NCBI RefSeq assembly: GCF_001693255.1
Contig: NZ_CP016476.1
Coordinates: forward strand, 1-64,000
DNA length: 64,000 nucleotides
Source of the DNA: Picosynechococcus sp. PCC 7003
GTDB lineage: Bacteria > Cyanobacteriota > Cyanobacteriia > Cyanobacteriales > MRBY01
Direction of reading: 5' to 3'
The notes beneath the pieces are model-generated. The model worked only from the letters and a program-made list of their open reading frames with translations. It was not told the DNA's origin and ran no database searches. How positions within the stretch are numbered: position 1 is the first letter of the stretch; each line of letters begins with the position of its first letter. Shown one piece after another: positions 6,473-63,299 of the stretch. The translations under genes and the position numbers were made by a program.

Positions 6473-7624
6473 TTACTGGGAACGCTGACGGAGGATCTGA
6501 ATTGCTTTTCGGACCAAGGCTTTTTTCTGGGGGTCAAAGCTATCTTGGACGGCGGGGCTCCGGGAAAAGGTATAGGTCAGGACACAGGCGGTGGCACTCA
6601 GGGCAATGGAGATGCCCGCCATCAGCATTGGAAAGGCGAGGCGTTCAAAGCGACCGGCTTTCAGATCGGTGGTAAAGAGTTCAGTGGCGATCGCCGCTCC
6701 ATCAGCAGGGGATTTCAGGTTATGGTCAGGCTGAAAATTGCTGCTAAAGTGGTCGGGCATTTCTGCCTGAAGAAATTGCACGTCATTGCCATATTGGGTG
6801 CGACGACTGAGGCGTTCATCTAGGTCGGTCTTGGCGGCATTGTAGGCGGCCAGATTTTCTGTCTCAAGGCGTTCGAGTTTTTGGGTGAGGGGGAGATTTG
6901 GGGTTTTTACCGTCGTCCAGTCGGTATCGCGCTCTGCGTAGGTGCCATAGAGACTTAGATACAGTCGCTGCCATTCGGGATTGTCTCGGGAGGCTACCTC
7001 CCCTTCTTCAAGGACAATTTGTTGGAGACTGGTTTGGGCTTCATTAATTTGGTCTTTTAGGTCATCTAGTTCACCTGCTGGTTTTAGTACGTCGAGCCGC
7101 TCCCGTTGTGCTTCGATAATGGTGGTCGCCAGCTGCTGTTGGACAGCGGGTTTGTTAGTAAATAGAACAATGCCGGGGCCCGTAAAAACAGTCAGGAGGG
7201 TATTAAGCATCAAAAACCCACTGAGGCCACACCAGGCGTTGGCGCGATAGCCTGGGGCATGTCTGGCGGCGATCGCCCCACAGTGGTTAGAGGCGGCATT
7301 AATTCCACCAAGGACAACAGCGGCAGCGGGGATTGTTGCGATGCCGAAACCACTCAGGGCAATGAGAATAAATGGGGTAATACCAATCGTATTGATCAGG
7401 CTAGAAATTGTGATCAGGCTGGCATTCAAGCGAGCCCGTTGTTTGACTTCTTTGGTAACGATGGCTGTGCCATGGAGATCCTTGGGGGAACAAACAAAGG
7501 CGCATTTCAGAAGAAAAAGCGTTGTTTTGCGGGTGGCTTGAACGGAAGAGGAGATTACTGCGTTACTCGGTAAGCCATAGAAGCGTAGTTTTGAGGAATA
7601 AGTCTGGGGAATTGATGTTTGCAT
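6473..7624 (-). CDS. Membrane protein with central coiled-coil-like domain (DUF4407-like layout)
   Basis: The 383-residue protein has hydrophobic segments at about residues 70-110 and 133-158, a long charged helical region (about 165-320, rich in E, Q, L and R) and a last membrane segment at about 332-357 (FPMLMAGISIALSATACVLT). This arrangement of N-terminal spans, a soluble coiled coil and a C-terminal span recalls DUF4407 proteins, although no strong family motif is visible. It is the first gene of the operon behind the motif at 7683-7712. In the candidate system it is the only clear integral membrane component, so a sensor or pore role can be proposed. Confidence 0.72.
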   Translation of the reverse strand: MQTSIPQTYSSKLRFYGLPSNAVISSSVQATRKTTLFLLKCAFVCSPKDLHGTAIVTKEVKQRARLNASLITISSLINTIGITPFILIALSGFGIATIPAAAVVLGGINAASNHCGAIAARHAPGYRANAWCGLSGFLMLNTLLTVFTGPGIVLFTNKPAVQQQLATTIIEAQRERLDVLKPAGELDDLKDQINEAQTSLQQIVLEEGEVASRDNPEWQRLYLSLYGTYAERDTDWTTVKTPNLPLTQKLERLETENLAAYNAAKTDLDERLSRRTQYGNDVQFLQAEMPDHFSSNFQPDHNLKSPADGAAIATELFTTDLKAGRFERLAFPMLMAGISIALSATACVLTYTFSRSPAVQDSFDPQKKALVRKAIQILRQRSQ

Positions 7625-7682: not shown

Positions 7683-7712
7683 ATATCGACATCGCCTGGA
7701 CGGTTTATGCAA
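7683..7712 (-). promoter_or_regulatory. Shared bipartite promoter-like motif, site A
   Basis: Read on the minus strand it is TTGCATAAA, 15 bases, then CGATAT. It lies 59 bases before the ATG of the 383-aa membrane protein. Four further sites with the same two boxes and N14 spacing precede the other operons of this region. Counted as a normal promoter, TTGCAT and CGATAT are 18 bases apart here. Confidence 0.6.
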
Positions 7713-8035: not shown

Positions 8036-8431
8036 TCAGGAAGAACTCGGTGGGGAAACTAGATTCATGACAATCTCAGACAAGGTTTGTACTGTGTCCT
8101 CCAGTTGGTCGATGCGTTCTGTCTGGGTCTGGGGCATTGGTAGATCCTTCACCTTGGGTAAAAGATGTTTCCAGCCACGACTGCATTTGAGTTGGTAGGT
8201 TTGCTGATAGGCTCGATAGGCTTCGTTATAGGTGCCATAACGCTCTTTCAGGAGCTCCTCACTAATCTGCTCACCAGGGATTTGTGCTGGAGGTGATTGT
8301 TCTTGGGCCTGTACTACCTGTTGCAGTCGTTCATAGAGTTCGGCGGTAACCGCAAAGACCTTGGCCGTATTGCGTAAATCCTGTTGGTCTAGGTCTTCGA
8401 GTTGGTCAATGAGTTTGCTAAAGCGTGACAT
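8036..8431 (-). CDS. Unknown 131-aa helical protein
   Basis: No family is recognised. The protein is helical and charged; the ends look like short amphipathic coiled coils (LIDQLEDLDQQDL at the start, IDQLEDTVQTLSEIVMNLV near the end) and the centre is rich in tyrosine and glutamine (GTYNEAYRAYQQTYQL). It lies 39 bases after the 216-aa coiled-coil gene and 51 bases before the zinc-ribbon gene on the same strand, so it belongs to their operon. Confidence 0.68.
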   Translation of the reverse strand: MSRFSKLIDQLEDLDQQDLRNTAKVFAVTAELYERLQQVVQAQEQSPPAQIPGEQISEELLKERYGTYNEAYRAYQQTYQLKCSRGWKHLLPKVKDLPMPQTQTERIDQLEDTVQTLSEIVMNLVSPPSSS

Positions 8432-8470
8432 AAAGTATTTGGGTTGGGAATTTGGGGAAGGACTAAATAA

Positions 8471-9121
8471 TTAGCGGTCTAACAGATCCCGTTGGATATC
8501 GGCTCTACTAGAACCCATCCAGGGTTTATCGCCACCACTATTCGGGTTCGGGTTGGGATCAATGGAACCGGCGCTGGGAGGAATATCGGGATCATCGTCG
8601 TTGCCAGGTTTGATTTTGCCAAAATCTTGAGGGTCATCGGAAAAGAAGGTGGCCTGGAGGAAGTTCCAAACGATGGAGAATTTGCCATAAAGGCTCTTGG
8701 TAGAACGCACCTTGGCCGCAGTAACTTTTACCTCTCGGTCGATTTCTCTTAATTCGGCACGGATTTTTTCTCGTTCCTGGGCTAGTCGTTGTTTTTCCAA
8801 GGCTAACTGTTGCATCTCCTGTTGTGCCCGAAGTAGATCCTTTTGCAGGGACTCATTGGTGAGCATTTGGTCATTCACTTCGTCTTGAAGATCGGTGATG
8901 TCGCTGCGGTAACGTTGATTCCAGCTTTGCAAGCTCCCTCGGGAACGGCGTAAAAATTTAATCAATTCGACGATTGCTAAAAGATCTTCATCGTCGGGAT
9001 TTTCTCTGGCCGTGTCATAGAGTTGTTTAATGAGTTCTTCAAAGTTTTCTTGTCCGTCCATCGTTGTTACAGGGCTAGGGTTTACAAAAGCTGTAGGGGC
9101 TGAGGGGGTCGTCAGTGGCAT
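8471..9121 (-). CDS. Coiled-coil protein, paralogue of the upstream 149-aa protein
   Basis: The 216-residue product has a long heptad-like region rich in Q, E, L and R (about residues 65-135) and then the segment SLYGKFSIVWNFLQATFFSD. The 149-aa protein encoded just upstream ends in the same kind of segment (SLRQKFKILWDFLQVVFFDE). After it comes a low-complexity acidic, proline- and asparagine-rich tail of about 50 residues, absent from the paralogue. No enzymatic motif is visible. The shared hydrophobic-aromatic end could be a membrane- or partner-binding element. Confidence 0.75.
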   Translation of the reverse strand: MPLTTPSAPTAFVNPSPVTTMDGQENFEELIKQLYDTARENPDDEDLLAIVELIKFLRRSRGSLQSWNQRYRSDITDLQDEVNDQMLTNESLQKDLLRAQQEMQQLALEKQRLAQEREKIRAELREIDREVKVTAAKVRSTKSLYGKFSIVWNFLQATFFSDDPQDFGKIKPGNDDDPDIPPSAGSIDPNPNPNSGGDKPWMGSSRADIQRDLLDR

Positions 9122-9165
9122 TGTTCGCTTTTCCTGAAAAGTTTAGGGGATAGTCGTTTTAATTA

Positions 9166-9615
9166 TTAAGAGGGAGAAATCACTACTGACTCATCAAAGA
9201 AAACAACTTGGAGGAAATCCCAAAGGATCTTGAATTTTTGTCGCAGGGAGCTACTGGCCTTAACCTGGGCGACAGCTTCATGGACGGTGCTTTCGATGGC
9301 CTCTAGTTCACCTCGCAGTTGATTGCGCTTAGCAATAATCTGCTGTTTTTCTTGAATGGCGTGGTTCATCTCTTGGTAAGTGGCTTGGAGATCTTCAGCT
9401 TGGACCTTATAGTTTTCACGACATTCACACAATTGGATTTTGAGTTGTTGCCGCAATTCCCGCTCTTGTTGAGATTGTTCCTGGAGAGTGAGACGTTCAT
9501 GGAGCAAACACTCAAGGATTTCAATCCCGCCTTGAATCGTCAAATCATTAGGTCTTGCTTTGGCGGCTTCTTTGAGGGTAGCGAGGCGGTTGAGTAGTTC
9601 TTGGTGCTTGTCCAT
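9166..9615 (-). CDS. Coiled-coil protein with conserved FKILWDFLQ end
   Basis: This 149-residue protein is the first gene of the operon that ends at the terminator near 7740. Residues about 35-110 form a strongly predicted coiled coil (repeated E/Q/L/R heptads), and residues about 122-142 hold the aromatic segment KFKILWDFLQVVFF, shared with its neighbour. It begins 32 bases after promoter-like site E. Function is unknown; partnership with the 216-aa paralogue is likely from the arrangement. Confidence 0.72.
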   Translation of the reverse strand: MDKHQELLNRLATLKEAAKARPNDLTIQGGIEILECLLHERLTLQEQSQQERELRQQLKIQLCECRENYKVQAEDLQATYQEMNHAIQEKQQIIAKRNQLRGELEAIESTVHEAVAQVKASSSLRQKFKILWDFLQVVFFDESVVISPS

Positions 9616-9646: not shown

Positions 9647-9675
9647 TAATCGCCACCTCAATTTTTTTTATGCAA
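9647..9675 (-). promoter_or_regulatory. Shared bipartite promoter-like motif, site E
   Basis: On the minus strand it reads TTGCATAAA, exactly 14 bases, then CGATTA. It ends 32 bases before the ATG of the 149-aa coiled-coil gene. Only the last two bases of the second box differ from the CGATAT of the other sites. Confidence 0.58.
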
Positions 9676-9789: not shown

Positions 9790-10310
9790 TCAAAAAAGAG
9801 CTTCAATCGACTTCATTGGTAGATAAAGCGTCTTTGGAGACTGAATAAACGGAATAAAGCCATATTTCAAATAAAAACGCTGTGCTTTCTCATTTAATGC
9901 TTCCACTACAATGACTAAAGACCCAATAGACTGGGAAGCTTCCCAGGCCCGACGTAAAGCATCAATCAATAACAGCTCCCCAAAACCCTGACCTCGGCAG
10001 TCTTGATCTACCGCCAACCTTCCCAAAAGCGTTGCTGGTAGGAGGGGATAACGGGGTAAGCCCTTCAAGATATCTGAACTCAGAACACCCACATCAACCG
10101 TATAAGGGGTCATGCCGACAGGGTATAGTAACCTAGCACTGCCATGTCCGGTTCATTCACTAAAACAAAGACCGTAGCCACCTGCTTTTTTACATCCTGG
10201 GAAGCTTGTCTTTGCAAATAGGTATCCAGAGAAATTTCACCGCAAGAAAAATCCCCGCGCCGGTGGACACGTTTATTCAGGGGCTGAATCCTAAGCACCA
10301 TGAACTGCAA
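9790..10310 (-). pseudogene. GNAT toxin of the TacT type, split by a frameshift
   Basis: Two overlapping frames together make one GNAT acetyltransferase like TacT, which acetylates the amino group of aminoacyl-tRNA and blocks translation. The first frame (10110-10310) carries the N-terminus through VLGYYTLSA, and the second (9790-10113) carries the acetyl-CoA motif GRLAVDQDCRGQGFGELLL and the C-terminal YLKYGFIPF. The frames meet at ATGA, so a single-base change has broken the gene, or a programmed shift joins them. The antitoxin gene upstream overlaps the start by 20 bases. In its present form the toxin is probably inactive. Confidence 0.75.
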
Positions 10311-10587
10311 TTTCTTCTTGGTAGCGGACTGCCGCTTGTTTCAGTGTGGCATTTGGTTCTGGTGGCTGTAATAGCGCATTTGCCAAGGCTTCACTGTCTT
10401 CCAAAGTCAATTTCAAAGTGTTATGGCGTTCAATCACTGCGTAGGCTGCGGCTTGGGCACTGGTCACGACAAAATCTGTTAGCGATCGCCCTTCGATGTC
10501 AGCGGCTTTTTGCATGAGAGCTTTTACCTCTGGACTGAGGCGGGCTTCTAAGCGAGCAAGATTTTTAGCTTTGGAAGCGGGTTTCAT
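10291..10587 (-). CDS. DUF1778 ribbon-helix-helix antitoxin (TacA type)
   Basis: The 98-residue protein matches the TacA/DUF1778 pattern: a ribbon-helix-helix N-terminus (LEARLSPEVKALMQKAADIEGRS), the SLTDFVVTSAQAAA helix and the C-terminal toxin-binding tail (LTLEDSEALANALLQPPEP). Such antitoxins bind the GNAT toxin and repress their own operon. It overlaps the broken GNAT gene, as expected for a TacAT pair. With the toxin broken, it might persist as an orphan antitoxin that protects against related modules. Confidence 0.88.
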   Translation of the reverse strand: MKPASKAKNLARLEARLSPEVKALMQKAADIEGRSLTDFVVTSAQAAAYAVIERHNTLKLTLEDSEALANALLQPPEPNATLKQAAVRYQEEIAVHGA

Positions 10588-10677: not shown

Positions 10678-13600
10678 CTACACCCCCTGACAGATAAAAC
10701 CACTCCAGTAGTAGGGATCAATGAACGGGTAGGAAGAACCAGGGTTTTTCTTTTTTCGCTCAATAAGAGCTTCCTGGGCAGTCGGAAATTCGGCTAACAA
10801 TTCTGTATAGGTAGCTTTTCTCAGACGTTGTTGTGCTTGTTGAAGGGCGAAAGCTGGTTGCTGGGTCTGTTTCAAGGCTTCATAGTAGTAGCTGCTGAAA
10901 ATTGCCGTTGCTAGGTCATCCACTGCCCACAGGGAAGAAATTACTGTTCTTGCTCCAGCACAGAGGAAGCCTGTCCCCAGGGTGAGTAGGTCATCGGTCA
11001 GCTCGGATTTGCCCAGGTTCGTTTCACAGCAAGACAGGAATACATGGTTCAAGTTCGGGTAACGCTTCAGCATTAGGCTCCCTAGGCTGAATTTTCCATC
11101 CCCTAATTCCAGGGCCGATTCCCTTGGATTGTTGAGGTCTGATTTGGCATGGTGGGAGGAGTGAACATTTTCGACCCGTGTCAAAAGGGCTTGGTAATTA
11201 TGGACGGTTGTCTCTGCTCTGCCCTTGAGGTGATTTTTGGGGAGCACTGGCTCTAACTGTTTCAGGCGATTGGCTTCGATGTGGGTAAATTTCAAATCCT
11301 CCTGGGTATTTTCAACGATGCCATAGTTAGTTTGGGGCAGTGGGGGGCGGTCATGGCAATATTTCAGGATCTGGCAACTGGGCAGCACTCGAATTTGGAA
11401 CAGATCACCCAGGTATTCCTCGTGGAGGAGATTCTGAATGGTTTGTACTCTGGTCTTGGATTTGATCTTGATGCGGGTATTGTCTAACTCTGGTTCCGGG
11501 TGGGTTACTGTCTCTTCGGCGTCGCCAATAGGTAGGGCAGCAAAGGGAATGTGATGAAAACCCAGATGGGGAATGATGATCAGCTCCTGAATACCGTTGA
11601 GGTGGTCTTGGATTAGTTGCTCTAAGTGGAGGGCTTGGGCGATATTTTGCAGGTTTTGTCCCATTGCCTGGCACCAGTGTGAATTATCCTCTTGGTAGGG
11701 AATTAACCATTGTTCTGTGAGCAGTTCCTCAAGCCGACCAAAGGTCAGGTCTGGGCAACTGTGGAGGGTCACTATAGGCTCGGGTTGCTTCGGTTGCTGA
11801 AAAAGCGAAAATAAGCCAGATTTTGTCGGAGAAGTTGCCGGGTGGCGAATGACAAAAATATGGGTTTCAGCGCCAGTGTTGTAGATGCTGAGGATGGCGC
11901 TCTGGAGGTTAGGTAGCAGGGCGGCAATTTCTTCAAAGGAGATCGCCTCTACCTGAATTTGTTGGGCGATGACGGGATCAAAGCGGCGAATTTCCCGCCA
12001 GAGGGTTTGTTTTTCGGCCTGTAGGGCTTGAATTTCTGCGGTTTTCGCTTCCCGTTCTGCTGGGGTAAGGGTGGTTTGGCGAAATCGGCCTAAGCCTCGT
12101 TCGCCAATGCTTCCATCGCTTGAATCTTCTTGCAGGAGGTTATGGAGTTGTCGTTCGACGGCTTCGTAGCGGGTGAGATAGTCCTGAATTTCTGGAGGGA
12201 TTTCGGCATTGGCATAGAGGTCATTGCTGGCGATCAGTTCCACCAGGCGACGACTGCGGCCCCGTTCAGCATAGGCTATTGCTTCGTCATATCTGCCCAG
12301 GGCAACACAGGCTTGAATGATGTTGTCATAGACTGTGATATTTTCGGCCATGATTTGCTGTTTATAGTCATCATCGGTCGCCCAACTGCTTAGCAGTTCA
12401 ATGCATTCAATCGCTGTTCGATATGTTTTAATTACCCTCTGCCAGTTTTCTTCTTGTACATACAAATCACCTAATAAAGAATTAGTGCTTAAACAAGCAT
12501 GAGGGTAACCCTCTTTTGTCCTCACGATTAAGGCTTGTTGGTAGTGATAGATAGCGCGTTCAATGTTCTGCCGCCTCTCCCCCTCTATCCGGTCACTGTA
12601 GGTACTAGCGAGGTTATTCTGGGCCTTTGCCCAATCCTCTGGATAGACTTCTTTTGTATAAACCGTTAAGGCTTGTCGGGAGTGGTAAATAGCCAATTCA
12701 AAGTTCTCTCTTATCTCTTCCTCCATTCGGTTTGCATAGGCCTTTGTCAAGTTCCCCTGGGTCTTCGCCCAATTCTCTGGATCAGCTTCTTTTGTATAAA
12801 CTGTTAGGGCTTGCTGATAGTGGTAAATGGCTTGCTCAATATTCTCCCGTCTATCACCCTCTATCCGGTCACTGTAGGCATTAGCAAGATTACCCTGGGT
12901 TTTTGCCCAATCTTCTGGAAAGGCTTCTTTTGTCCTCACTGTTAAAGCTTGTTGATAGTGGTAAATAGCCAATTCAAGATTTTCTCTCCTACCACCCTCT
13001 ATCCGGTCACTGTAAACATGAGCCAAGCCATGCTCGGTCATTGCCCAATTCTCTGGATCAGCTTCTTTTTTCCTCACTGTTAAGGCTTGTTGGCAGTAGT
13101 ATATGGCCAGTTCAAGATTTTCTCTTCTATCTCCCTCGATTCGCTTCCAGTAGGCATGAGCAAGGCTATGGTAAATTGTTGCCCATTGTTCTGGATACGC
13201 TTCTTTTACATAAATAACTAAGGCTTTCTGGTAATGGTGAATCACTCTTTCTATGATTTCTCGTTTGTTTTGATCGAGATTATCAAAATATTCATAAGCG
13301 ATATCCCACTGGATCTCTGCCCAGTCCTCCGGTGATTTGATCCTCTCCTCTTCAAAATCTTGCAAGATCAAGGGCACTCGAAAAACCTCAAAGACCACCG
13401 CCAGCTTGAGCCTGAGCCACTGCTGTACCGTCTCAATTTCCACATCCGGCAGCATCTCTGGTGACTCTCCGACTACTGCTGCATTGATTGCCTCGACGGT
13501 TTCTACCGATGGCTCCAGGTCATTAAAAATCAACTGAAAAATGTCATGGATTTCCTTTTGGCTCAGCCTTAATAGCGTTTCGCTGAGGTGAAGCTCCGAC

Positions 13601-13767
13601 GCAAACTCAAAGGAATTGAGGAGACAGTCCTGGAGCAACTCAATTGCCCGAAAAATCAGCTCTAACTCCGCCTCCTCGCAGTTCTCCTCCAGATACTCAG
13701 CCAGCTCATCAATCGTCCACTCATCCAGATTGGCATCGAGGGTTTGTTCGTACTCTGTTTTTGACAT
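10678..13767 (-). CDS. TPR-CHAT protein (caspase-like protease fold), shorter copy
   Basis: This 1029-residue protein has an acidic N-terminal domain (residues 1-150), six 46-residue TPR-type units containing P-E-x-W-A and ENIExAIYHYQQAL (about 165-440), one canonical TPR, a linker, and a C-terminal CHAT domain (about 700-1029). CHAT domains are caspase-like cysteine proteases; the likely His is in VHSSHHAKSD (about residue 870) and the likely Cys in VFLSCCETN (about 912), so the dyad appears intact. It is the last gene of the leftward cyclase/GHKL operon, 31 bases after its neighbour. A longer, nearly identical copy lies in inverse orientation at 18652. TPRs would select substrates or partners. 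Confidence 0.9.
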   Translation of the reverse strand: MSKTEYEQTLDANLDEWTIDELAEYLEENCEEAELELIFRAIELLQDCLLNSFEFASELHLSETLLRLSQKEIHDIFQLIFNDLEPSVETVEAINAAVVGESPEMLPDVEIETVQQWLRLKLAVVFEVFRVPLILQDFEEERIKSPEDWAEIQWDIAYEYFDNLDQNKREIIERVIHHYQKALVIYVKEAYPEQWATIYHSLAHAYWKRIEGDRRENLELAIYYCQQALTVRKKEADPENWAMTEHGLAHVYSDRIEGGRRENLELAIYHYQQALTVRTKEAFPEDWAKTQGNLANAYSDRIEGDRRENIEQAIYHYQQALTVYTKEADPENWAKTQGNLTKAYANRMEEEIRENFELAIYHSRQALTVYTKEVYPEDWAKAQNNLASTYSDRIEGERRQNIERAIYHYQQALIVRTKEGYPHACLSTNSLLGDLYVQEENWQRVIKTYRTAIECIELLSSWATDDDYKQQIMAENITVYDNIIQACVALGRYDEAIAYAERGRSRRLVELIASNDLYANAEIPPEIQDYLTRYEAVERQLHNLLQEDSSDGSIGERGLGRFRQTTLTPAEREAKTAEIQALQAEKQTLWREIRRFDPVIAQQIQVEAISFEEIAALLPNLQSAILSIYNTGAETHIFVIRHPATSPTKSGLFSLFQQPKQPEPIVTLHSCPDLTFGRLEELLTEQWLIPYQEDNSHWCQAMGQNLQNIAQALHLEQLIQDHLNGIQELIIIPHLGFHHIPFAALPIGDAEETVTHPEPELDNTRIKIKSKTRVQTIQNLLHEEYLGDLFQIRVLPSCQILKYCHDRPPLPQTNYGIVENTQEDLKFTHIEANRLKQLEPVLPKNHLKGRAETTVHNYQALLTRVENVHSSHHAKSDLNNPRESALELGDGKFSLGSLMLKRYPNLNHVFLSCCETNLGKSELTDDLLTLGTGFLCAGARTVISSLWAVDDLATAIFSSYYYEALKQTQQPAFALQQAQQRLRKATYTELLAEFPTAQEALIERKKKNPGSSYPFIDPYYWSGFICQGV

Positions 13768-13798
13768 TGTTTAAATTCCTTTTGAAAACGTTTCCCTA

Positions 13799-15364
13799 TC
13801 AATAAACCCGGAGAAGCTGATGATACTGTCCATGAATAAACTGATTTTGTATTAGCATCACGTGGGCTGCGACTCCGGCTAAGCGCTCTACTTCCCGCCG
13901 AAAGTCTTCACCATGGTGCATATTCAGCGCATGGGCTGCCTCATGGATAAAAACCTCCAAAGACTCTGGCCCCAAAGGATTACGCCATAGCTCGTCATAG
14001 TCTAAAGCCAAAGTTAACACGTTCTCACTGCTCCAGTGGGCGACAAACCGCTGGCGGCCCTCAGGATTTACTGCCACCTTCCCTGTTACTCGTTGTAGAG
14101 GAAAGGGATAACTATCCAGCAGCTGCTGACAAAACCACACCGCAAAATCTAAACAGCGATTTACATGGTCGATGCCCCCTTGCCGCTCAATCCACATCTG
14201 CCGAGGATCCCGTTCCGGTAGTGGCTGGGCTGGCACAAATCCACTCGCTGTTGCTTCAGCAGCCTTTTGGACTTCATCCTTTTGGACGATTTCCCGGGCA
14301 GTGGGGACTAATTCCTTCAGCATCTCCCGAAAACCACCGCTGGTTTGACTGGTTTTAACAATCTCAACCCCCAGCTCCCGGGCATCTTCATCAAATTGAC
14401 GCGCACCCATTTTCGGCACGGAACGGGCAATATTCTCCCCAAAGGCTTTGGTAATGATTTGTTGTTTTACTGTCTGGTCACATTTTTTCCCGGCATTACC
14501 CACCCAGTCTTGGCGCACCGTTTCAGAGTCCATACTTTCTAACAAGATTGGTAAATAAGCCACGTGGAGCTTCAGGGGATAACCCGTCGCCACGGCGTCA
14601 CGGTTAGGATTCATCGGCACCCGCTGCTGGATATTGCAATGGAATGGCATAGTCCACTCCACTGGCGCTACAGGAATACCCATTTCGTAAATGGTCGGCG
14701 TCTCATTCGCCTGGGCAGGGATTAAGTGGATTGCAGTTTTACGGCTCGGTTTTTTCCAGCTCTGGGCTTGGTGGTCATACACCTCGGTGGTCAAGGATGT
14801 TCCAACGCTATGTTGGACAGGGCGTTGGGTGAGGGCAACTCCATTCAGGCGGAACTGGATTTGCTCTGGAATGATAAATTGCTGAAAATAGCCGTCGAGC
14901 TTAAGCTTTGTTTCAGGGGGCCAAGCCATCTGCATCTTCACCAAGGTTCCTGGTTGCAAGGGACTGATCCCCTCCCGGGTGATGCGCTCTTGACCATCAT
15001 AGAGAAATTCAATTTGCTGACCCTGGCTTTGGACAAGGGCATAGTCAGCGACACAGAGGGCTTCTTTAAAACCCCGGCCAAAGCGACCCCGCTTTAGATG
15101 ACTGTCGGTTTTATGGGTTAGATACACAACCCGAAGATCCGATAAGGATTCGATGCCGCTGCCATTATCCCGGCATTCAACAAAAAATTTATTTTGAACA
15201 TAGCCATAGTTAAGGATAATTTGGCCAGGCTCTCCCTCGGCAATGGAATCCAAGGCGTTTTGTACTAATTCTTTGACAAGATGTTCTGGGGGGCGAGCAG
15301 CGTTCATAGCGGCAAAGCCTTCGGTACTGATGGCAAGCCAGCCTTTGGATGATTGGGTCAGCAT
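13799..15364 (-). CDS. GHKL ATPase fused to an HExxH metallopeptidase-like domain
   Basis: The 521-residue product starts with a GHKL ATP-binding domain: N-box (ELVQNALDSI, about residue 31), G1 box (DNGSGI, about 61) and a glycine-rich lid (RGRFGRGFKEAL, about 91). Its C-terminus carries VFIHEAAHALNMHHG (about residue 470), an HExxH zinc-peptidase signature with a further His downstream. GHKL domains close on ATP to drive dimer changes, so the protein may be an ATP-gated peptidase or its scaffold. It lies between the cyclase-like gene (81-base gap) and the CHAT gene (31-base gap). The pairing is inferred only from sequence and is not one I can name. Confidence 0.82.
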   Translation of the reverse strand: MLTQSSKGWLAISTEGFAAMNAARPPEHLVKELVQNALDSIAEGEPGQIILNYGYVQNKFFVECRDNGSGIESLSDLRVVYLTHKTDSHLKRGRFGRGFKEALCVADYALVQSQGQQIEFLYDGQERITREGISPLQPGTLVKMQMAWPPETKLKLDGYFQQFIIPEQIQFRLNGVALTQRPVQHSVGTSLTTEVYDHQAQSWKKPSRKTAIHLIPAQANETPTIYEMGIPVAPVEWTMPFHCNIQQRVPMNPNRDAVATGYPLKLHVAYLPILLESMDSETVRQDWVGNAGKKCDQTVKQQIITKAFGENIARSVPKMGARQFDEDARELGVEIVKTSQTSGGFREMLKELVPTAREIVQKDEVQKAAEATASGFVPAQPLPERDPRQMWIERQGGIDHVNRCLDFAVWFCQQLLDSYPFPLQRVTGKVAVNPEGRQRFVAHWSSENVLTLALDYDELWRNPLGPESLEVFIHEAAHALNMHHGEDFRREVERLAGVAAHVMLIQNQFIHGQYHQLLRVY

Positions 15365-15445
15365 TGTCTTCTTGATTTCCTTAAATCTAGGTTGTTAATG
15401 AAGTTGGTTTAACCAATGGTTGGATGATCTGTAATGCTTTGCTGG

Positions 15446-15955
15446 TTAGGGCAGTGATTCAGTTGTGGGAGGCAGCAAGAGTTGCTGCAGATAAATTTGT
15501 AGTTGAGGAAGGGTGAGATTATTGTTAAAGCTTCCTTTATGGGTCAGGGTCACCCCGCCGGTTTCCTCGGAGACAACAATCCCAATGCAGCTACTCACTT
15601 GTTCTGAGATTCCTAAGGCGGCCAGGTGTCTTGTGCCATAACGCCGGGGCAAGGGCTGACAGGAGAGCGGCAGAAGCGTACCGGCAGCAATTATCGCTTG
15701 GCCGCGAATTTGGGTTGCACCATCATGGAGGGGCGAGCTCGGTCTAAAGATACGCACCAAATTCTCTTGGGTTAGAGAAAGTTTTAGCAGCACACCGGGT
15801 CTGAGGACATCATGCTCGGTTAGCGGGGTCTGGCGCTCGATGATCATCAAGGCACCAATTTGATGTTGGGACAGGTAATCAATGGTCTGGATTAGGGTCT
15901 GAATGGCTGGGTCATGGCTTAAAGGCATATATTCTGGTTTCGGCAAGGTCATCAT
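15446..15955 (-). CDS. Diadenylate cyclase (DisA_N/DAC) domain protein
   Basis: The 169-residue product consists almost entirely of a DAC domain, which makes the second messenger c-di-AMP from two ATP. The DGA motif is intact (SPLHDGATQI, about residue 75) and so is the VVSEETGG motif (about residue 126). The conserved RHR motif reads RHL (YGTRHLAALGISE, about residue 106), so the second Arg is replaced. There is no membrane segment, unlike CdaA, and no DNA-binding domain, unlike DisA. It is the first gene of the leftward operon, starting 36 bases after site B. It may be a cyclase with altered activity or a nucleotide sensor. Confidence 0.85.
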   Translation of the reverse strand: MMTLPKPEYMPLSHDPAIQTLIQTIDYLSQHQIGALMIIERQTPLTEHDVLRPGVLLKLSLTQENLVRIFRPSSPLHDGATQIRGQAIIAAGTLLPLSCQPLPRRYGTRHLAALGISEQVSSCIGIVVSEETGGVTLTHKGSFNNNLTLPQLQIYLQQLLLPPTTESLP

Positions 15956-15990
15956 TCGGAAAAAGCAATTATTTTGCGGCTGTTAAGGTT

Positions 15991-16019
15991 ATATCGACGC
16001 TTTTTCTAGGTTTATGCAA
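15991..16019 (-). promoter_or_regulatory. Shared bipartite promoter-like motif, site B
   Basis: On the minus strand it reads TTGCATAAA, 14 bases, then CGATAT. It ends 36 bases before the start of the DAC gene and would drive the cyclase/GHKL/CHAT operon. It is the best match to site D on the opposite strand. Confidence 0.65.
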
Positions 16020-16087
16020 TTTTTTGAGGTTCAAGTAGGATTATTGCTTTGGGATCCAGGTGATTCACTCTGGCAAAAATAAACGAA

Positions 16088-16116
16088 TTGCATAAATTTG
16101 GGTGCAAAGACGATCT
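16088..16116 (+). promoter_or_regulatory. Shared bipartite promoter-like motif, site C
   Basis: On the plus strand it reads TTGCATAAA, 14 bases, then CGATCT. It is one of two tandem sites upstream of the sigma-like gene. One base of the second box differs from the consensus. Confidence 0.5.
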
Positions 16117-16161
16117 AGTGGCATGCGATCGCCTAAATTAACCAAAAAATTTTTCTGGAAT

Positions 16162-16190
16162 TTGCATAAATTTTTGGGCGCTGACGATAT
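16162..16190 (+). promoter_or_regulatory. Shared bipartite promoter-like motif, site D
   Basis: On the plus strand it reads TTGCATAAA, 14 bases, then CGATAT. It lies 128 bases before the ATG of the sigma-like gene, leaving a leader of about 120 bases. Autoregulation by that factor is possible. Confidence 0.6.
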
Positions 16191-16318
16191 TACAGTACAT
16201 CGAGCGTTTTGGAGGTCTTTTACAGACTTATACCCTTGATCCCCCATCCCCCATAACCCCTTAGTTATCCTAAAACTATGTTCTCCTCCACTGCCAACAC
16301 TTACTAATACCCGATGCG

Positions 16319-17038
16319 ATGGACAATCACAACCTTTGCAGCCTCATCCTCGATATTTACCACTGCCATGTCGCCAACAAACCCTATGACAATCAGATAG
16401 AAAGCCTGACCTATGGACTAGATCACATACGCCAGCTCAAGGCCTATCTGGGATCTGGATACTTACCCTACTACGAGCAGGCCCTAACCAAGACCATGGA
16501 GGATGTCCAAAAAAACATCACTAAATTCTTTACAGTCAAAGCTCAAGTTAATTTCGGTGAACGACGGGCTGACAATCCCGAAGATGTCACAGTGATTTCT
16601 AAAGCGTTCATTAGTTGGGTCATGGTCATCCTCAAGCGAGACTGCCAGGATGAACGCCGTAGAATAAAGCGTTGCCAGGCATCCGGCAAAGGAGTCCAAA
16701 GCCTTGACACCCCCATCGCTGAAGGGCTGACCCTCCAAGATGTTATTCCCGCTGGTACTAACCCTATGGATAATCTCATTGATGCGGAGACCGCCCGCGA
16801 AAACAAACGCAAGCATGATGAACTCCTCGCCCTACTCCCGGAGAAACTAACCTGCCGTTCTAAAAAATATCCCCAATGCCATTGCTATGACATCTTTGTC
16901 CGTCAATACTTGCAAGAGCCTAAACAAACTTTTAAAGAAATCGCCCAAGAACTAGGTATGGCCCAGGGGACAATCACCGGTCACTGGTATCGCAAATGTC
17001 AGCCTATTCTCGATGAACTGGCTCATCAATATCGTTAA
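16319..17038 (+). CDS. Sigma-70-like regulator
   Basis: The 239-residue protein ends in a sigma region 4-like helix-turn-helix (TFKEIAQELGMAQGTITGHWYRK, residues about 205-228), which normally contacts the -35 box. Its middle has region 2-like helices (VISKAFISWVMVILKRDCQDERRR). The N-terminus is not a standard region 1. It lies at the head of the rightward operon with a DUF1822 gene, an arrangement I recall as common in cyanobacteria, and its leader carries two copies of the shared motif. It is the natural candidate to recognise that motif. The fused cysteine-containing insert (CRSKKYPQCHC) before region 4 is unusual. Confidence 0.7.
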   Translation: MDNHNLCSLILDIYHCHVANKPYDNQIESLTYGLDHIRQLKAYLGSGYLPYYEQALTKTMEDVQKNITKFFTVKAQVNFGERRADNPEDVTVISKAFISWVMVILKRDCQDERRRIKRCQASGKGVQSLDTPIAEGLTLQDVIPAGTNPMDNLIDAETARENKRKHDELLALLPEKLTCRSKKYPQCHCYDIFVRQYLQEPKQTFKEIAQELGMAQGTITGHWYRKCQPILDELAHQYR

Positions 17039-17051
17039 CCCCTTATTTTTT

Positions 17052-18188
17052 ATGAATATTTCTCTTTTAGACAAAACAACCGGCCACACAATCTCTTTTA
17101 GTGCGGCGCAACAACATTTAGCCCGCCGCTATGGCGCCCAGCAACTCAGTGAAGCCCAAGCCCAAGCGGTTTACCTGGGGACCCTGGCCCGCACCGCTGT
17201 TCAGGGATTTCTCGCAGAGATGCTCCATATCGAGGCCGACCTCAACGGCAGTCACAGTGAAAATCCCCTCCTCCGTCAACTCAACCCCACTTTTGATCTA
17301 GAGTTACCGGAGCTTGGCCCCCTGATTTGTATTCCTGTACAAGATAAGGATTTAGCGGATGGCGATCGCCTTTCGTTACCTTTCCACCCGGAACCAGCCC
17401 TCGGCTATGTAGTGGTCCTGTTCAGTGAGGATACAACTTCTTGTCGGGTCTATGGCTACCTGCCTGCTGCCGTCCTTGCTGAAGATGCCACTGATTTTTC
17501 CCTCAGCCAACTCCAGGACATCGGCCAACTCCAGGACGATCTCTATGAGCTGGAGGAATACCTAGAAATTTTGCCGGAGCTGATGGCCACAGAGGTCTTT
17601 GTTTCACCGGCAGATGCCATTGTAATGATGGAACGCCTCAAACATTTACCCGTACACCAGCGAAAAGCGGCATTACTCCAGGCCTATCCCCAACTTAATG
17701 AAAAGGCAAATCATTTCCTCGCCGTCTGGGGAGATTTTGTCGCCCTCGGGGATTGGTTAAAAGATCAATGGCAGGGGGCTTGGGCTAATCTCCAAGACGA
17801 GATCACGGCTCTGACCTACCCCAATCTCACCCTAAATTTTGCGGGTCAAACGCGTTCTAGTGCCGCTCCTGTGCATCAATCCCTTTGTCAGGGAGTCAGC
17901 GTACTTTCCTTGGGGGGTCAGGATTTCTATGTTGTGATTCGTTGCCAACCGCAGGAGGAAAACTTGATGGATGTGGCCGTTGAGATCTCTCCCCAAGAGG
18001 GAGAAGCAGGGCTGCCCGTTGGTCTTAGCCTCCGTCTGCTCGATGATACCGACGCGGTCTTGTATGAAGAAAAGGTAACTGAGGGCGATCGCCAATTGAG
18101 TCTTGAGCTAGAGGGGGAAGTCGGCGAAGGGTTCCTCCTAGAATTTTCCTTTGGCAATACCTTAGTCCAAAAATACGTCCAGATTTAA
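17052..18188 (+). CDS. DUF1822 family protein
   Basis: The 378-residue product matches DUF1822 in its N-terminal half: an opening (ISFSAAQQHLARRY), the YLGTLARTAVQGFLAEMLHIEADL stretch and the VYGYLPAAVL region. The C-terminal part is beta-rich, ending in a sandwich-like domain (residues about 280-378). The ATG at 17052 was chosen over the upstream in-frame start at 17013, which lies inside the previous gene. Genes of this family often follow a sigma-factor gene in cyanobacteria, so regulation of that factor is plausible, but no biochemical role is established. Confidence 0.82.
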   Translation: MNISLLDKTTGHTISFSAAQQHLARRYGAQQLSEAQAQAVYLGTLARTAVQGFLAEMLHIEADLNGSHSENPLLRQLNPTFDLELPELGPLICIPVQDKDLADGDRLSLPFHPEPALGYVVVLFSEDTTSCRVYGYLPAAVLAEDATDFSLSQLQDIGQLQDDLYELEEYLEILPELMATEVFVSPADAIVMMERLKHLPVHQRKAALLQAYPQLNEKANHFLAVWGDFVALGDWLKDQWQGAWANLQDEITALTYPNLTLNFAGQTRSSAAPVHQSLCQGVSVLSLGGQDFYVVIRCQPQEENLMDVAVEISPQEGEAGLPVGLSLRLLDDTDAVLYEEKVTEGDRQLSLELEGEVGEGFLLEFSFGNTLVQKYVQI

Positions 18189-18245
18189 CCCCTTGGGGAG
18201 GTGGCGCGATGCTGCCTCCCGGTCACCTTTCCCACAGAAAAAACC

Positions 18246-18587
18246 ATGACCCAGATTCGCATTTTAGAAGTCTTCCGTTATAACGGTGGCTTAGTTTTTG
18301 ATGATCCAGAAAAGGGCCTCGATAAGGAAGCCTTTGTCGCCGGAATTGACGGGATGCTCGAAACCCTGATGGCGACCAAGGGCATTACGGAACGCTTTAA
18401 ACTCACTTTTTCACCCCAACCTTTTCCGGGTTATGAGTTGTCCTTACAGTGGCAACGGCGAGAGTTTGAGGGCAACTGGTATTACTGCGCCGAACTAGAG
18501 GCAGAAGGGTGGCTTTGTCCGGCTCTCTACCATTATTTCGAAACGGCACCCCAAGCCCTCTATGTCCGGGTTGATCCCCTCGCCTAA
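18246..18587 (+). CDS. Small DUF6717-like protein
   Basis: The 113-residue protein shows conserved blocks I associate with DUF6717: VFDDP-like LVFDDPEKGLDKEAFVAGI, FPGYELSLQW and GWLCPALYHYF. The frame is open to 18201 but the ATG at 18246 begins the recognisable protein. It lies between the DUF1822 gene and the long CHAT gene, so it belongs to the rightward operon. The family assignment comes from memory of its pattern and needs a profile search. Confidence 0.55.
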   Translation: MTQIRILEVFRYNGGLVFDDPEKGLDKEAFVAGIDGMLETLMATKGITERFKLTFSPQPFPGYELSLQWQRREFEGNWYYCAELEAEGWLCPALYHYFETAPQALYVRVDPLA

Positions 18588-18651
18588 TCACCTCTTTTTT
18601 CGGATTATCCCCTCCCATTCATCAAAATTTTTTACAGGAGTCAGCGTCATT

Positions 18652-21600
18652 ATGTCCAAGACAGAGTACGAACAAACCCTCGATGCCAACCTGGATGAGT
18701 GGACGATTGATGAGCTGGCTGAGTATCTGGAGGAGAACTGCGAGGAGGCGGAGTTAGATCTGATTTTTCGGGCGATTGATTTGCTCCAGGACTGTCTCCT
18801 CAATTCCTTTGAGTTTGCGTCGGAGCTTCACCTCACAGAGACGATGTTAAGGCTGAGTCAAAAGGAAATCCACGACATCTTTCAGTTCATTTTTAATGAC
18901 CTGGAGCCACCGGCGGAAACGGTCGAGGCAATCAATGCAGCAGTGGCAAAAGAATTATCAGAGATGCCGCCGGATGTGGAGATTGAGGCGGTACAACAGT
19001 GGCTCAGGCTCAAGCTGGCGGTGGTCTTTGAGGTTTTTCGGGTGCCGTTTATTGTGCAAGACTTTGAAGAAGGGAAGATCAAATCACCGGAAGACTGGGC
19101 AAATCTTCAATTTAATTTGGCTTATGACCATTCTGAAAATATTGAACAAACCAAATCAGAAATAATTGAAAAGCTTATTTACCATTACCAAGAAGCATTA
19201 TTAGTTTACACAAGAGAGACTTGTCCAGAGGATTGGGCAAATACTCAAAATAACCTAGGTTCTGCCTATAACAAGCGGATAGAGGGGGAAAGAAGAGAAA
19301 ATATTGAACGTGCTATCTACCACTACCGGGAAGCCTTAAAGGTCAGTGCAAAAGATGCTCACCCAGAACACTGGGCAATAATGCAGTCTAATCTTGCTTT
19401 TGTCTACAGTAGCCGGGTACAGGGAAACAAAAGAGAGAATATAGAACAGGCTATTTATCATTTTCAACAAGCCTTAACGGTGAGGACAAAAGAATCCTTT
19501 CCAGAAGATTGGGTAATAACCCAGAATAATCTGGCCATTGCCTACTTAGACCGGATAGAGGGAGAGAAACGAGAGAATCTTGAACTCGCCATCTTCCACT
19601 CCCAGCAAGCCTTAGCGGTCAGTACAAAAGAGGCCTATCCAGAGGATTGGGCAAATACTCAAAATAACCTAGGTTCTGCCTATAACAAGCGGATAGAGGG
19701 GGAAAGAAGAGAAAATATTGAACGTGCTATCTACCACTACCAAGAAGCCTTAACGGTTTATACAAAAGAAGCCTTGTCAGAGGATTGGGCAATGACACAG
19801 TATAACCTCGCTAATGCCTATAGTGACCGGATAGAAGGAGAGAGAAGGGAAAACATCGAACTCGCTATCTTCTACTACCAAGAAGCCTTAACGGTTTATA
19901 CAAAAGAAGCTCATCCTAAAGAGTGGGCAGGGACACAAAATAATCTAGCTCGTATTTATGTAGACCGAATTGAGGGAGATAAAAGAGAGAATATTGAACA
20001 GGCTATTTATCATTTTCAACAAGCTTTAATAATTTATAAGCAAGATATCTATCCAAAGCTTTGGGCAATGATTCAGCATAATGTGGCTCTTGTCTATTTA
20101 GACCGGATAGAAGGAGATAAAAGAAAGAATATTGAACGAGCTATTTATCATGCTCAGGAAACCTTAACAGTTTATAAAAAAGAAGCCTATCCTAAAGACT
20201 GGGCAGAGACTCAGAATAGTCTGGCTATTGCTTATATTAAGCGGATAGAGGAAGATAAGCGAGATAACTTAGAATTTGCCATCTGCCATTGTAAAAAAGC
20301 GCTAACTATAATTACTAAGGAAACCTATCCAAAGCTTTGGGCAATGATTCAGCATAATTTAGCTCTTGCTCATTCAGACCGGATAGAAGGAAATAAAAGA
20401 AAGAATATTGAGCTTGCCATTCATTATTACCAGGAAGCCTTGACGGTAAGAACAGAAAAAACCGATCCAGAAGCTTGGGCAACGACCCAGAATAACCTCG
20501 CTCTTGCCTACAGTGACCGAATAGAGGGGGAGAGATGGGAGAACCTCGAACTCGCTATCTTCTGCTACCAGCAAGCCTTAACCGTCAGGACAAAAGAGGC
20601 CTTTCCCCATGACTGTCTAAACAGTAGCTCTTTCCTAGGGAATTTATACCTACAACAGGAAGACTGGCAAAGGGCAATAAAGCCCTATCAAACGGCGATT
20701 GAATGCATTGAACTGCTCACCAGTTGGACGGCCGATGATGACTATAAGCAACAAATCATGGCCGAAAATATCACGGTCTATGACAACATCATCCAAGCCT
20801 GTGTTGCTTTGGGTAAATATGATGAGGCTATTGCCTACGCTGAACGGGGCCGCAGTCGTCGGCTAGTGGAACTGATCGCCAGCAATGACCTCTATGCCGA
20901 TGCCGAAATCCCCCCCGAGATTCAGGCCTATCTCGCCCGCTACGAAGCCATCGAACGACAACTGCATAACCTCCTGCAAGAAGATTCAAACGATGGGAGC
21001 ATTGGCGAACGAGGCTTAGGCCGATTCCGCCAAACCACCGTCACCCCAGCAGAACGGGAAGCGAAAACCGCAGAAATCCAGGCTCTACAGGCTGAGAAAC
21101 AAACCCTCTGGCGGGAAATTCGCCGCTTCGATCCCGTCATCGCCCAACAAATTCAGGTAGAGGCGATCTCCTTTGCAGAAATTGCTGCTCTCCTACCCAA
21201 CCCCCAGAGCGCCATCCTCAGCATCTACAACACCGGCGCCGAGACCCACATTTTTGTCATTCGCCACCCAGCAACTTCTCCAAAAAAATCTGGCTTATTT
21301 TCGCTTTTTCAGCAACTAAACAAACCCCGCCCGGTGATTACCCTCCACAGTTGCCCAGACCTGACCTACCAGAAACTAGAGGACCTGCTCACAGAACAAT
21401 GGTTAATTCCCTACCAAGAGAACAATGAACAATGGCAGGCTGACCTAGGACAAAACCTGCAAAATATCGCCCAAGCCCTCCAGCTAGAGCAACTGATCCA
21501 AGACCACCTCACCGGCATCCAGGAACTGATCATTATTCCCCACCTGGGTTTCCATCACATTCCCTTTGCTGCCCTCCCCACTGGAGAAGCTACAGTCACC

Positions 21601-22413
21601 CAAACAGAACAAACCCTAGACAATACCCGCATTAAGATCAAATCCAAGACCAGAGTACAAACCGTTCAGAATCTCCTCCACGAGCAATACCTGGGTGATC
21701 TGTTCCAAATTCGGGTGCTGCCCAGTTGCCAGATCCTGAAATATTGCCATGACCGTCCCCCACTGCCCCAAAGCAATTACGGCATTGTCGAAAATACCCA
21801 GGAGGATTTGAACTTCACCCACATCGAAGCCAATCGCCTGAAACAATTGGAGCCAGTGCTCCCCCAAAATCACCTCAAGGGCAGAGCAGAAGCAACCGTC
21901 AGTAATTACCAAGATCTTTTGACACGGGTCGAAAATGTTCACTCCTCCCACCATGCCAAATCAGACCTCAACAATCCAAGGGAATCGGCCCTGGAATTAG
22001 GGGATGGAAAATTTAGCCTGGGGAGCCTCATGCTGAAGCGTTACCCGAACTTGAACCATGTATTCCTGTCCTGCTGCGAAACGAACCTGGGCAAATCCGA
22101 GCTAACCGATGACCTGCTGACCTTAGGAACAGGTTTCCTCTGTGCCGGCGCAAGGACAGTCATTTCTTCTCTGTGGGCAGTGGATGACCGAGCGACCGCA
22201 ATCTTCAGCAGCTACTACTATGAAGCCCTCCAGAAAACTCAAAAACCGGCTTTAGCTCTGCAAAAAGCACAACAGCGTTTACGGAATGTGACGGTAGTAG
22301 AGATTTGCCAGGAATTCCCTGAGCTAGAGGAAAGCATGGACTTGAGAGAACCAGAGAATCGCCCCTATGCCGTCCCCTTCTGGTGGGGAGCTTTCATCTG
22401 CCAAGGGGTATAA
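18652..22413 (+). CDS. TPR-CHAT protein (caspase-like protease fold), longer copy
   Basis: This 1253-residue protein shares the acidic N-terminal domain (residues 1-150) and CHAT domain with the copy at 10678-13767, but has eleven 46-residue TPR-type units (about 155-665) in place of six. The candidate His (VHSSHHAKSD, about residue 1096) and Cys (VFLSCCETN, about 1140) are present. An ACAGGAG ribosome-binding site lies before the ATG at 18652; the frame is open to 18562 but the conserved N-terminus begins at 18652. It is the last gene of the sigma/DUF1822 operon. The final 40 residues differ from the other copy. Confidence 0.9.
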   Translation: MSKTEYEQTLDANLDEWTIDELAEYLEENCEEAELDLIFRAIDLLQDCLLNSFEFASELHLTETMLRLSQKEIHDIFQFIFNDLEPPAETVEAINAAVAKELSEMPPDVEIEAVQQWLRLKLAVVFEVFRVPFIVQDFEEGKIKSPEDWANLQFNLAYDHSENIEQTKSEIIEKLIYHYQEALLVYTRETCPEDWANTQNNLGSAYNKRIEGERRENIERAIYHYREALKVSAKDAHPEHWAIMQSNLAFVYSSRVQGNKRENIEQAIYHFQQALTVRTKESFPEDWVITQNNLAIAYLDRIEGEKRENLELAIFHSQQALAVSTKEAYPEDWANTQNNLGSAYNKRIEGERRENIERAIYHYQEALTVYTKEALSEDWAMTQYNLANAYSDRIEGERRENIELAIFYYQEALTVYTKEAHPKEWAGTQNNLARIYVDRIEGDKRENIEQAIYHFQQALIIYKQDIYPKLWAMIQHNVALVYLDRIEGDKRKNIERAIYHAQETLTVYKKEAYPKDWAETQNSLAIAYIKRIEEDKRDNLEFAICHCKKALTIITKETYPKLWAMIQHNLALAHSDRIEGNKRKNIELAIHYYQEALTVRTEKTDPEAWATTQNNLALAYSDRIEGERWENLELAIFCYQQALTVRTKEAFPHDCLNSSSFLGNLYLQQEDWQRAIKPYQTAIECIELLTSWTADDDYKQQIMAENITVYDNIIQACVALGKYDEAIAYAERGRSRRLVELIASNDLYADAEIPPEIQAYLARYEAIERQLHNLLQEDSNDGSIGERGLGRFRQTTVTPAEREAKTAEIQALQAEKQTLWREIRRFDPVIAQQIQVEAISFAEIAALLPNPQSAILSIYNTGAETHIFVIRHPATSPKKSGLFSLFQQLNKPRPVITLHSCPDLTYQKLEDLLTEQWLIPYQENNEQWQADLGQNLQNIAQALQLEQLIQDHLTGIQELIIIPHLGFHHIPFAALPTGEATVTQTEQTLDNTRIKIKSKTRVQTVQNLLHEQYLGDLFQIRVLPSCQILKYCHDRPPLPQSNYGIVENTQEDLNFTHIEANRLKQLEPVLPQNHLKGRAEATVSNYQDLLTRVENVHSSHHAKSDLNNPRESALELGDGKFSLGSLMLKRYPNLNHVFLSCCETNLGKSELTDDLLTLGTGFLCAGARTVISSLWAVDDRATAIFSSYYYEALQKTQKPALALQKAQQRLRNVTVVEICQEFPELEESMDLREPENRPYAVPFWWGAFICQGV
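19224..19327 (+). repeat. 104-bp direct repeat in the long CHAT gene, copy 1
   Basis: These 104 bases are identical to 19638-19741. The copies are 414 bases apart, which equals three 138-base TPR units. Other units in the gene are much more diverged, so this copy is recent or has been homogenised. Confidence 0.85.
19638..19741 (+). repeat. 104-bp direct repeat in the long CHAT gene, copy 2
   Basis: The stretch is identical to 19224-19327 and encodes the same PEDWANTQNNLGSAYNKR unit plus the start of the next helix. Confidence 0.85.
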
Positions 22414-24747: not shown

Positions 24748-24769
24748 TTACCCATAACGTTATGGGTAA
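24748..24769 (+). promoter_or_regulatory. Distant copy of the second par palindrome
   Basis: A 22-bp perfect palindrome with core TACCCATAACGTTATGGGTA lies between the Doc-like gene and the VirB2-like gene. The other four copies are at 61.6-63.5 kb around the second parAB. It is 150 bases upstream of the first type IV secretion gene. Confidence 0.7.
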
Positions 24770-24918
24770 TCGCGCTAATGATTTATGTTCGGAGCCTAAA
24801 GCCTCTCAAGCTTGGATTATTTCTCTCTTTCGCAATCTTCAAAAAAAAAATTTAGCGACTTTATCCGAATCTGGAACGCCCCTTGCTCTTAGGGATTGAA
24901 GGATTCAATTTTTTTTCT

Positions 24919-61461: not shown

Positions 61462-61596
61462 CTCATCTAAGGCGATCGCCTTTTGATTGTGGAGGTGATC
61501 GCCATCATCCAAAACCCTTTATCGGATGATTGGGTAATCAGACTGTTTTTCATGCTACCTATTGGACTGAATACCCGAAAATTTGAGGCTGGAAGC

Positions 61597-61616
61597 TACC
61601 CATAACGTTATGGGTA
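61597..61616 (+). promoter_or_regulatory. Palindrome upstream of the second parA
   Basis: The perfect 20-bp palindrome TACCCATAACGTTATGGGTA lies 36 bases before the parA start. It could be a ParB binding site or an operator of the parAB promoter. Confidence 0.75.
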
Positions 61617-61652
61617 ATATAAAATATGTTCAGGTAAATCTTAGGTTGATTT

Positions 61653-63183: not shown

Positions 63184-63279
63184 TTTGGGTAGTGACTGCC
63201 CGCCGAGATAAAAAACGAAACTGCCTGGAATTCCTTTCCCATGAGACTCTGTTTCGTTCCAGGAAAAGGGAAAAATAAT

Positions 63280-63299
63280 TACCCATAACGTTATGGGTA
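63280..63299 (+). promoter_or_regulatory. Palindrome downstream of the second parB, copy 1
   Basis: The 20-bp core TACCCATAACGTTATGGGTA lies 97 bases after parB. It is part of a pair, the other being at 63429. Confidence 0.75.

Follow-up and report, generated by a model that had tools for sequence, protein, structure and literature searches.

The 64-kb window analysed here opens the 253-kb contig C3 (NZ_CP016476.1), a plasmid of Picosynechococcus sp. PCC 7003, the genome of which consists of three contigs (3.35 Mb). Two divergent operons lie within it. One encodes a diadenylate cyclase (DAC) protein, a GHKL ATPase with an HExxH motif and a CHAT protease with tetratricopeptide repeats (TPR), and the other a sigma factor, a DUF1822 protein, a DUF6717 protein and a second TPR-CHAT protease (Table 1). 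A first-pass annotation had described the two operons, the control region of about 360 bp that they share and the TPR-CHAT gene at the end of each, and the open reading frames (ORFs) and Pfam searches confirm this picture: every gene it named is an intact ORF with a family match, and the region between the DAC and sigma operons measures 363 bp. Its limits of 10678-22413, however, were too narrow. They leave out the two putative output operons, and within the limits themselves the DUF6717 gene was missed; the putative regulon spans about 4.6-22.4 kb.

Table 1. Features of the plasmid gene set and its surroundings in window coordinates (ECF, extracytoplasmic function; TM, transmembrane; 7002 and 7117, the related plasmids of PCC 7002 and PCC 7117).
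Feature	Position	Strand	Evidence and remarks
Pentapeptide-repeat protein	4559..5740	-	Pfam 1e-59
232-aa partner protein	5745..6443	-	Homologue follows the membrane-protein gene in L279, L285, L287, L307
Membrane protein, putative output	6473..7624	-	Four TM-like stretches; picked out by its box
Promoter box TTGCATAAA-N15-CGAT	7685..7712	-	88 bp before the membrane-protein operon (7624); same place in 7002, 7117
Three small, partly coiled-coil proteins (149, 216, 131 aa), regulon operon	8036..9615	-	ORFs
Promoter box	9649..9675	-	60 bp before the coiled-coil operon (9615); same place in 7002, 7117
GNAT protein	9790-10113		Forms a toxin-antitoxin pair with the DUF1778 gene, between the units; membership unsure
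DUF1778 antitoxin (TacA1-like)	10291..10587	-	Pfam 1e-27
TPR-CHAT protease, left copy, 1029 aa	10678..13767	-	Pfam CHAT 6e-37, TPRs; H and C motifs SSHHAKSD, LSCCET
GHKL (Hsp90-like) ATPase, C-terminal HExxHx5H zincin-type site	13799..15364	-	HATPase_c 9e-6
Soluble stand-alone DAC domain, 169 aa	15446..15955	-	Pfam DAC 2e-31
Control region	15956-16318		Between the DAC and sigma operons
Promoter box TTGCATAAA-N14-CGAT	15993..16019	-	64 bp before DAC; conserved in 7117, with a single mismatch in 7002
Promoter box of the lost TPR gene	16088..16114	+	On the 7002 and 7117 plasmids it precedes the TPR gene
Promoter box of the sigma operon	16162..16188	+	157 bp before the sigma gene
ECF-like sigma factor	16319..17038	+	NCBIfam sigma70-ECF 4.5e-5; profile match to sigmas of other DUF1822 operons; SYNPCC7002_RS15030 in 7002
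DUF1822 protein, predicted to inhibit sigma and to be a protease substrate	17052..18188	+	Pfam 2e-32; directly after sigma
DUF6717 protein	18246..18587	+	Pfam 8e-13; single copy in the genome
TPR-CHAT protease, right copy	18652..22413	+	Pfam CHAT 9e-39; tandem 138-bp/46-aa TPR units

The closest matches to the window are plasmid unnamed5 of PCC 7117 and plasmid pAQ6 of PCC 7002. On both, the gene set recurs in the same order and as the same two divergent operons, with an additional TPR gene between sigma and DAC that has been cleanly lost from the window, where the flanking control sequence is kept. Across the three plasmids synonymous divergence is high and protein change low. The ratio of nonsynonymous to synonymous divergence (dN/dS) is 0.07-0.10 for DAC, 0.04-0.09 for GHKL, 0.08-0.17 for sigma and DUF1822, and 0.14-0.24 for CHAT, the last for the measurable pairs only, dS being saturated in pairs involving the 7002 left CHAT. 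DAC and GHKL-HExxH are under strong purifying selection. It is important to point out that, while the gene set is under selection, the three orthologous plasmids represent one lineage and not three independent origins.

Conserved boxes in the control region define a bipartite motif, TTGCATAAA-N14/15-CGAT, which occurs five times in the window compared to 0.01 expected from shuffles, always with a spacer of 14 or 15. All five boxes are found on the 7117 plasmid, while on that of 7002 four are exact and the DAC box has one mismatch. The whole genome holds six boxes, none of them on the chromosome. The sixth belongs to a second cassette of this plasmid (C3:197552-206245; gene order sigma-DUF1822-CHAT-DUF928-TPR-CHAT) and lies ~61 bp ahead of its sigma gene. 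Since the motif was derived from these very sequences, the number of boxes in the control region is not by itself an independent test; the independent evidence comes from the boxes of the two operons nearby, from the second cassette and from the fact that the spacing is conserved. Three related strains of the genus have no box, and the single or double matches on the chromosomes of two other genomes (G386 and G058) look like chance and were discarded, no sigma, DUF1822 or CHAT gene being nearby. The form of the boxes is that of ECF-like -35/-10 elements. We infer that the cluster's own sigma factor reads them, in which case the genes of the set are probably switched on together. The common promoter motif and the conservation in three plasmids also speak for one system, as the first-pass annotation had supposed, rather than for chance adjacency.

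Two of the boxes lead to the putative output operons. In the coiled-coil operon the first two proteins are paralogues, and the PLSDB matches of the 216-aa protein are limited to Picosynechococcus plasmids. The membrane protein of the other operon is rare (12 of 291 sampled genomes), and in four genomes (G066, G390, G405 and G205) it comes directly, or nearly so, after CHAT-sigma-DUF1822. It is followed there by a protein of ~230-270 aa and then by a short pentapeptide-like protein, both matched by position and by eye; the 232-aa partner was matched by sequence at L279, L285, L287 and L307. A fifth genome (G002) has DUF1822 and the membrane protein only.

The membrane protein is also found in the vicinity of CRISPR genes. 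It stands beside them at L280 and L307; its recorded positions are between a csm6-like gene and csx18-cas1-cas2 on a C. aponinum plasmid, near cas1 in Planktothrix and near a ring-nuclease-like gene at L284. The PCC 7003 plasmid itself carries a second membrane protein-232 aa-pentapeptide operon (L285, C3:108000-124000), the membrane protein of which is 73% identical to the first, and this stretch holds a Cmr6-like type III-B CRISPR gene. In PCC 7117, csx18-cas1 lies near the cluster. A further homologue of the membrane protein is present on the Synechocystis plasmid pSYSA, where a DUF6717 gene is found near it. Genes with a kinase-like ATPase domain also lie beside the membrane-protein trio at L279, L285 and L287 (PSTK/Pnkp-like at L285).

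The sigma-DUF1822-CHAT cassette is ordinary in cyanobacteria, as follows from the neighbours of DUF1822 and the sigma-model matches across cyanobacterial genomes. DUF1822 is present in 81 of 117 of these, often in several copies. In other genomes the next gene is CHAT in 21 of 36 cases, and a same-strand gene lies less than 200 bp upstream in 33 of 36. Among the 37 proteins at the sigma position, a number that includes the window's own and its two orthologues, 25 match sigma70-ECF and nine the type III-E CRISPR sigma model; hhalign relates the window's protein to one group from the other cassettes at 97.9% and, more weakly, to two others at 62-82%. The statement of the first-pass annotation that sigma-DUF1822 pairs and CHAT proteins occur near each other in cyanobacteria is thus borne out.

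This has consequences for novelty. Kaur et al. 2021 (PMC8195603) had already reported genes for an ECF sigma and DUF1822 beside EACC2-caspase proteins, and the idea of an entirely undescribed set holds only in part: the association of sigma and DUF1822 with a caspase-like protein is known, while novelty lies in the regulon, in the output module and in the addition of DAC and of the GHKL-HExxHx5H family. Compared to those neighbourhoods, which share the ECF sigma and DUF1822 adjoining a caspase-fold protein, the plasmid has TPR-CHAT in two copies, a divergent DAC-GHKL operon and a membrane-protein output operon.

Turning to the proteases, we note that start 18652 of the right CHAT agrees better with its paralogue than 18562. 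The left TPR-CHAT is 32% identical over 912 aa to that of the chromosomal sigma-DUF1822 operon L286 (G390). The window's CHAT aligns with the Craspase TPR-CHAT (7zoq) at the dyad, SHHAKSDLNNP and CCET against YCHGQSDVNNP and ACET, and judged from this alignment the His-Cys dyad is intact. Each of the three strains has its own version of the left CHAT, in contrast to DAC and GHKL, which hardly vary. Over the C-terminal 560 aa the window's left copy is 87% identical to the right CHAT and 76% to its positional counterpart in 7117, and gene conversion from the right CHAT seems to have produced it. The number of 46-aa TPR units varies. Conflict systems typically combine variable ends with a core that stays constant, a parallel that is suggestive only.

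For the GHKL protein, the residues E32, N36, D39, G70, G98 and K100 of the ATP site are invariant in 66 aligned relatives, and so are H474, E475, H478 and H484, corresponding to the HExxH motif and a third ligand. Among near-full-length relatives 122 of 126 keep HExxH, mostly as HExxHx5H. The AlphaFold2 model has a pLDDT of 91.5, and its best Foldseek matches are TRAP1/Hsp90. Alignment and model together indicate an Hsp90-like protein with a zincin-type peptidase site. It shares the Bergerat ATP-site residues and the Hsp90-like model with GHKL ATPases such as Hsp90/TRAP1, sacsin and MutL, but is fused to the HExxHx5H domain and belongs to a family that is frequent in phage contigs. The search gave 47 loci in genomes, 112 in viral contigs, of which 80 were kept, and one in a 485-kb uncultured phage. 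A literature search on GHKL, HExxH and phage found no paper on this family, and the analysis brings it out as a large one with invariant ATP and zinc residues.

The first-pass annotation had proposed a survey of whether DAC, GHKL-HExxH and CHAT genes co-occur. They do so in the three plasmids, whereas elsewhere GHKL-HExxH has other partners: no DAC was found near its relatives, and the idea that the two always travel together was rejected. In freshwater picocyanobacteria some close relatives are flanked by a macro-DUF4145 protein on one side and a TIR protein on the other (two loci), the macro fold coming from Foldseek on a modest model (pLDDT 64). No fixed partner was found in phage contigs. 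The partners of GHKL-HExxH thus differ: DAC and CHAT on the plasmid, macro-DUF4145 and TIR in the freshwater relatives. Genes with an N-terminal kinase-like ATPase domain recur beside the freshwater cyanobacterial copies (four loci), and in a 194-kb viral contig (L123:7962-9877) a GHKL-HExxH gene overlaps a DUF6717 gene.

The DAC protein resembles CdaA in its domain, in 36-45% identity to cyanobacterial CdaA and in the DGA motif (HDGATQI). It differs in being soluble, with no TM-like stretch in its 169 aa, and in having RHL in place of the RHR motif in all three plasmid copies. Its position in the tree outside the cyanobacterial CdaA clade, though on a long branch, led us to reject a recent copy of the host CdaA as its source. 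The chromosomal CdaA of three Picosynechococcus genomes, fast-evolving and on a long branch, also reads RHL, so that the two share the R-to-L change despite no close relationship; the CdaA of PCC 7003 itself (C1:98730-99161) has in addition DGS for DGA. An Rfam scan of the window gave zero RNA families at the gathering threshold and therefore no c-di-AMP (cyclic di-AMP) riboswitch. PHROGs returned nothing for DAC, GHKL, DUF1822 and DUF6717, and weak matches only for sigma.

The closest worked-out mechanism is that of type III-E CRISPR, in which cleavage of Csx30 by Csx29 frees an ECF sigma from its inhibitor, a sigma for which the locus itself contains binding motifs (PMC10028731). The plasmid set looks like a CRISPR-free relative of it. 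Like the CASP/Craspase module, it has an ECF-like sigma, a third protein encoded beside the sigma, a TPR-CHAT protease and sigma-type boxes in its own locus; unlike it, the set adds DAC and GHKL-HExxH and has other output genes. The genes annotated around the cluster in 7002 and 7117 include no Cas7-11/gRAMP effector guided by CRISPR RNA, the whole genome not having been scanned with a Cas7-11 model. As in CBASS, Panoptes and other nucleotide-signalling defence, a small nucleotide cyclase has possible effectors encoded alongside it, but the synthase of the set is Pfam DAC, another enzyme family than CD-NTase or mCpol, and no known receptor was found.

From these results we propose a plasmid-borne, protease-gated sigma-factor circuit whose most likely purpose is defence of the cell or the plasmid, a proposal that we make tentatively and with slightly less than even confidence. 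At rest, DUF1822 would bind the ECF-like sigma and keep it inactive. A trigger, perhaps the infection or stress supposed in the first-pass annotation, would then activate the TPR-CHAT proteases, one of which would cut DUF1822, a role as sigma inhibitor and CHAT substrate that we predict from gene order and analogy. From the TTGCATAAA-N14/15-CGAT promoters the released sigma would boost both its own operon and that of DAC-GHKL-CHAT and would turn on the two output operons, with the coiled-coil proteins on the one hand and the membrane protein, the 232-aa protein and the pentapeptide protein on the other; these products would probably act on the membrane. The sensor or switch that acts before CHAT is most likely GHKL-HExxH, an Hsp90-like ATP clamp that carries a zincin-type site, and DAC may supply or modulate a nucleotide signal for it. 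The circuit is proposed because of the boxes, the chromosomal CHAT-sigma-DUF1822-membrane operons, the sigma-model matches and the Csx29-Csx30 precedent. Defence, possibly against phage, is proposed because the membrane protein occurs by csm6 and csx18-cas1-cas2, GHKL-HExxH by TIR and macro-DUF4145, and csx18-cas1 close to the cluster in 7117. The widespread and unexplained pair of sigma and DUF1822 would hereby gain a concrete, testable mechanism, with the caspase-sigma logic extended beyond CRISPR, and the predicted regulon with its defined promoter can be tested in the genetically tractable PCC 7002 (plasmid pAQ6). A more specific version, which we regard as quite improbable, is a CRISPR-independent immunity in which GHKL-HExxH and the RHL DAC sense infection, CHAT cuts DUF1822 and sigma drives membrane-active outputs, type III-E CRISPR then being a later capture of a sigma-inhibitor-caspase circuit of this kind.

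A number of results weigh against this proposal. The window's CHAT proteins are, by sequence, not Csx29: the left one matches the NCBIfam Csx29 model at 5e-11 and 42 bits, with a cut-off of 300, and the right one does not match it. A DUF1822 profile searched against solved structures retrieved no related chain and no relation to Csx30, the Csx30 sequence not having been compared directly. The DAC-GHKL-CHAT arm is confined to one plasmid lineage in the genomes searched, where, of 386 cyanobacterial genomes sampled, two hold the GHKL protein and two a second DAC match. The nucleotide signalling put forward in the first-pass annotation stands as regards the DAC domain and the DGA motif, but a c-di-AMP output is uncertain, as RHL for RHR may lower or abolish the activity. 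ATP binding by M. tuberculosis DacA depends on RHR, and a change of the motif to AAA abolishes activity (PMC3328451); there all three residues were replaced, while the plasmid DAC differs at one. PADLOC gave weak matches only for the cluster and none for DAC. Finally, no box was found upstream of sigma in most other DUF1822 operons, and the box is therefore lineage-specific.

Some of these points bear on other explanations. The same protease-gated circuit could serve stress adaptation or plasmid maintenance, which we consider a real, if doubtful, possibility. Sigma-DUF1822-CHAT would then be general cyanobacterial signalling, tied to envelope or ion stress by DAC through c-di-AMP and its osmotic and potassium control. 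The lack of a strong PADLOC match and the frequent, often multicopy DUF1822 agree with this, as do the many cassettes whose last gene is CHAT or DUF928 and near which no defence gene was seen; however, several plasmids have the regulon's membrane protein next to type III CRISPR genes, TIR and macro-DUF4145 genes adjoin GHKL-HExxH relatives, and the set is plasmid-borne, its DAC being absent from four further Picosynechococcus genomes. It is also conceivable, though unlikely, that the boxes are operators or promoters of another sigma or DNA-binding regulator and that DUF1822 is no inhibitor. Against this stand the strict 14-15 spacing, the ECF-like -35/-10 form and the presence of boxes before two different sigma-DUF1822 cassettes on one plasmid but not on the chromosome, even if the link from box to sigma is putative and an exact box is missing from most other sigma-DUF1822 loci. 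Another option is that DAC and GHKL-HExxH, the left arm, form a module of their own whose partner is not the sigma circuit and which has only the promoter type in common with it, the left CHAT being derived from the right one by gene conversion. The identity values and strain-to-strain variation of the left CHAT and the GHKL-HExxH relatives with no DAC nearby would be compatible with that, but the DAC has its box in all three plasmids (with the mismatch in 7002) and the order DAC-GHKL-CHAT is fixed, and we find this option distinctly improbable.

Outside the gene set, a perfect palindrome, TACCCATAACGTTATGGGTA, occurs in five copies in the window (24748-24773 and 61596-63454), four of them within 2 kb; it is probably a regulator or partition site.

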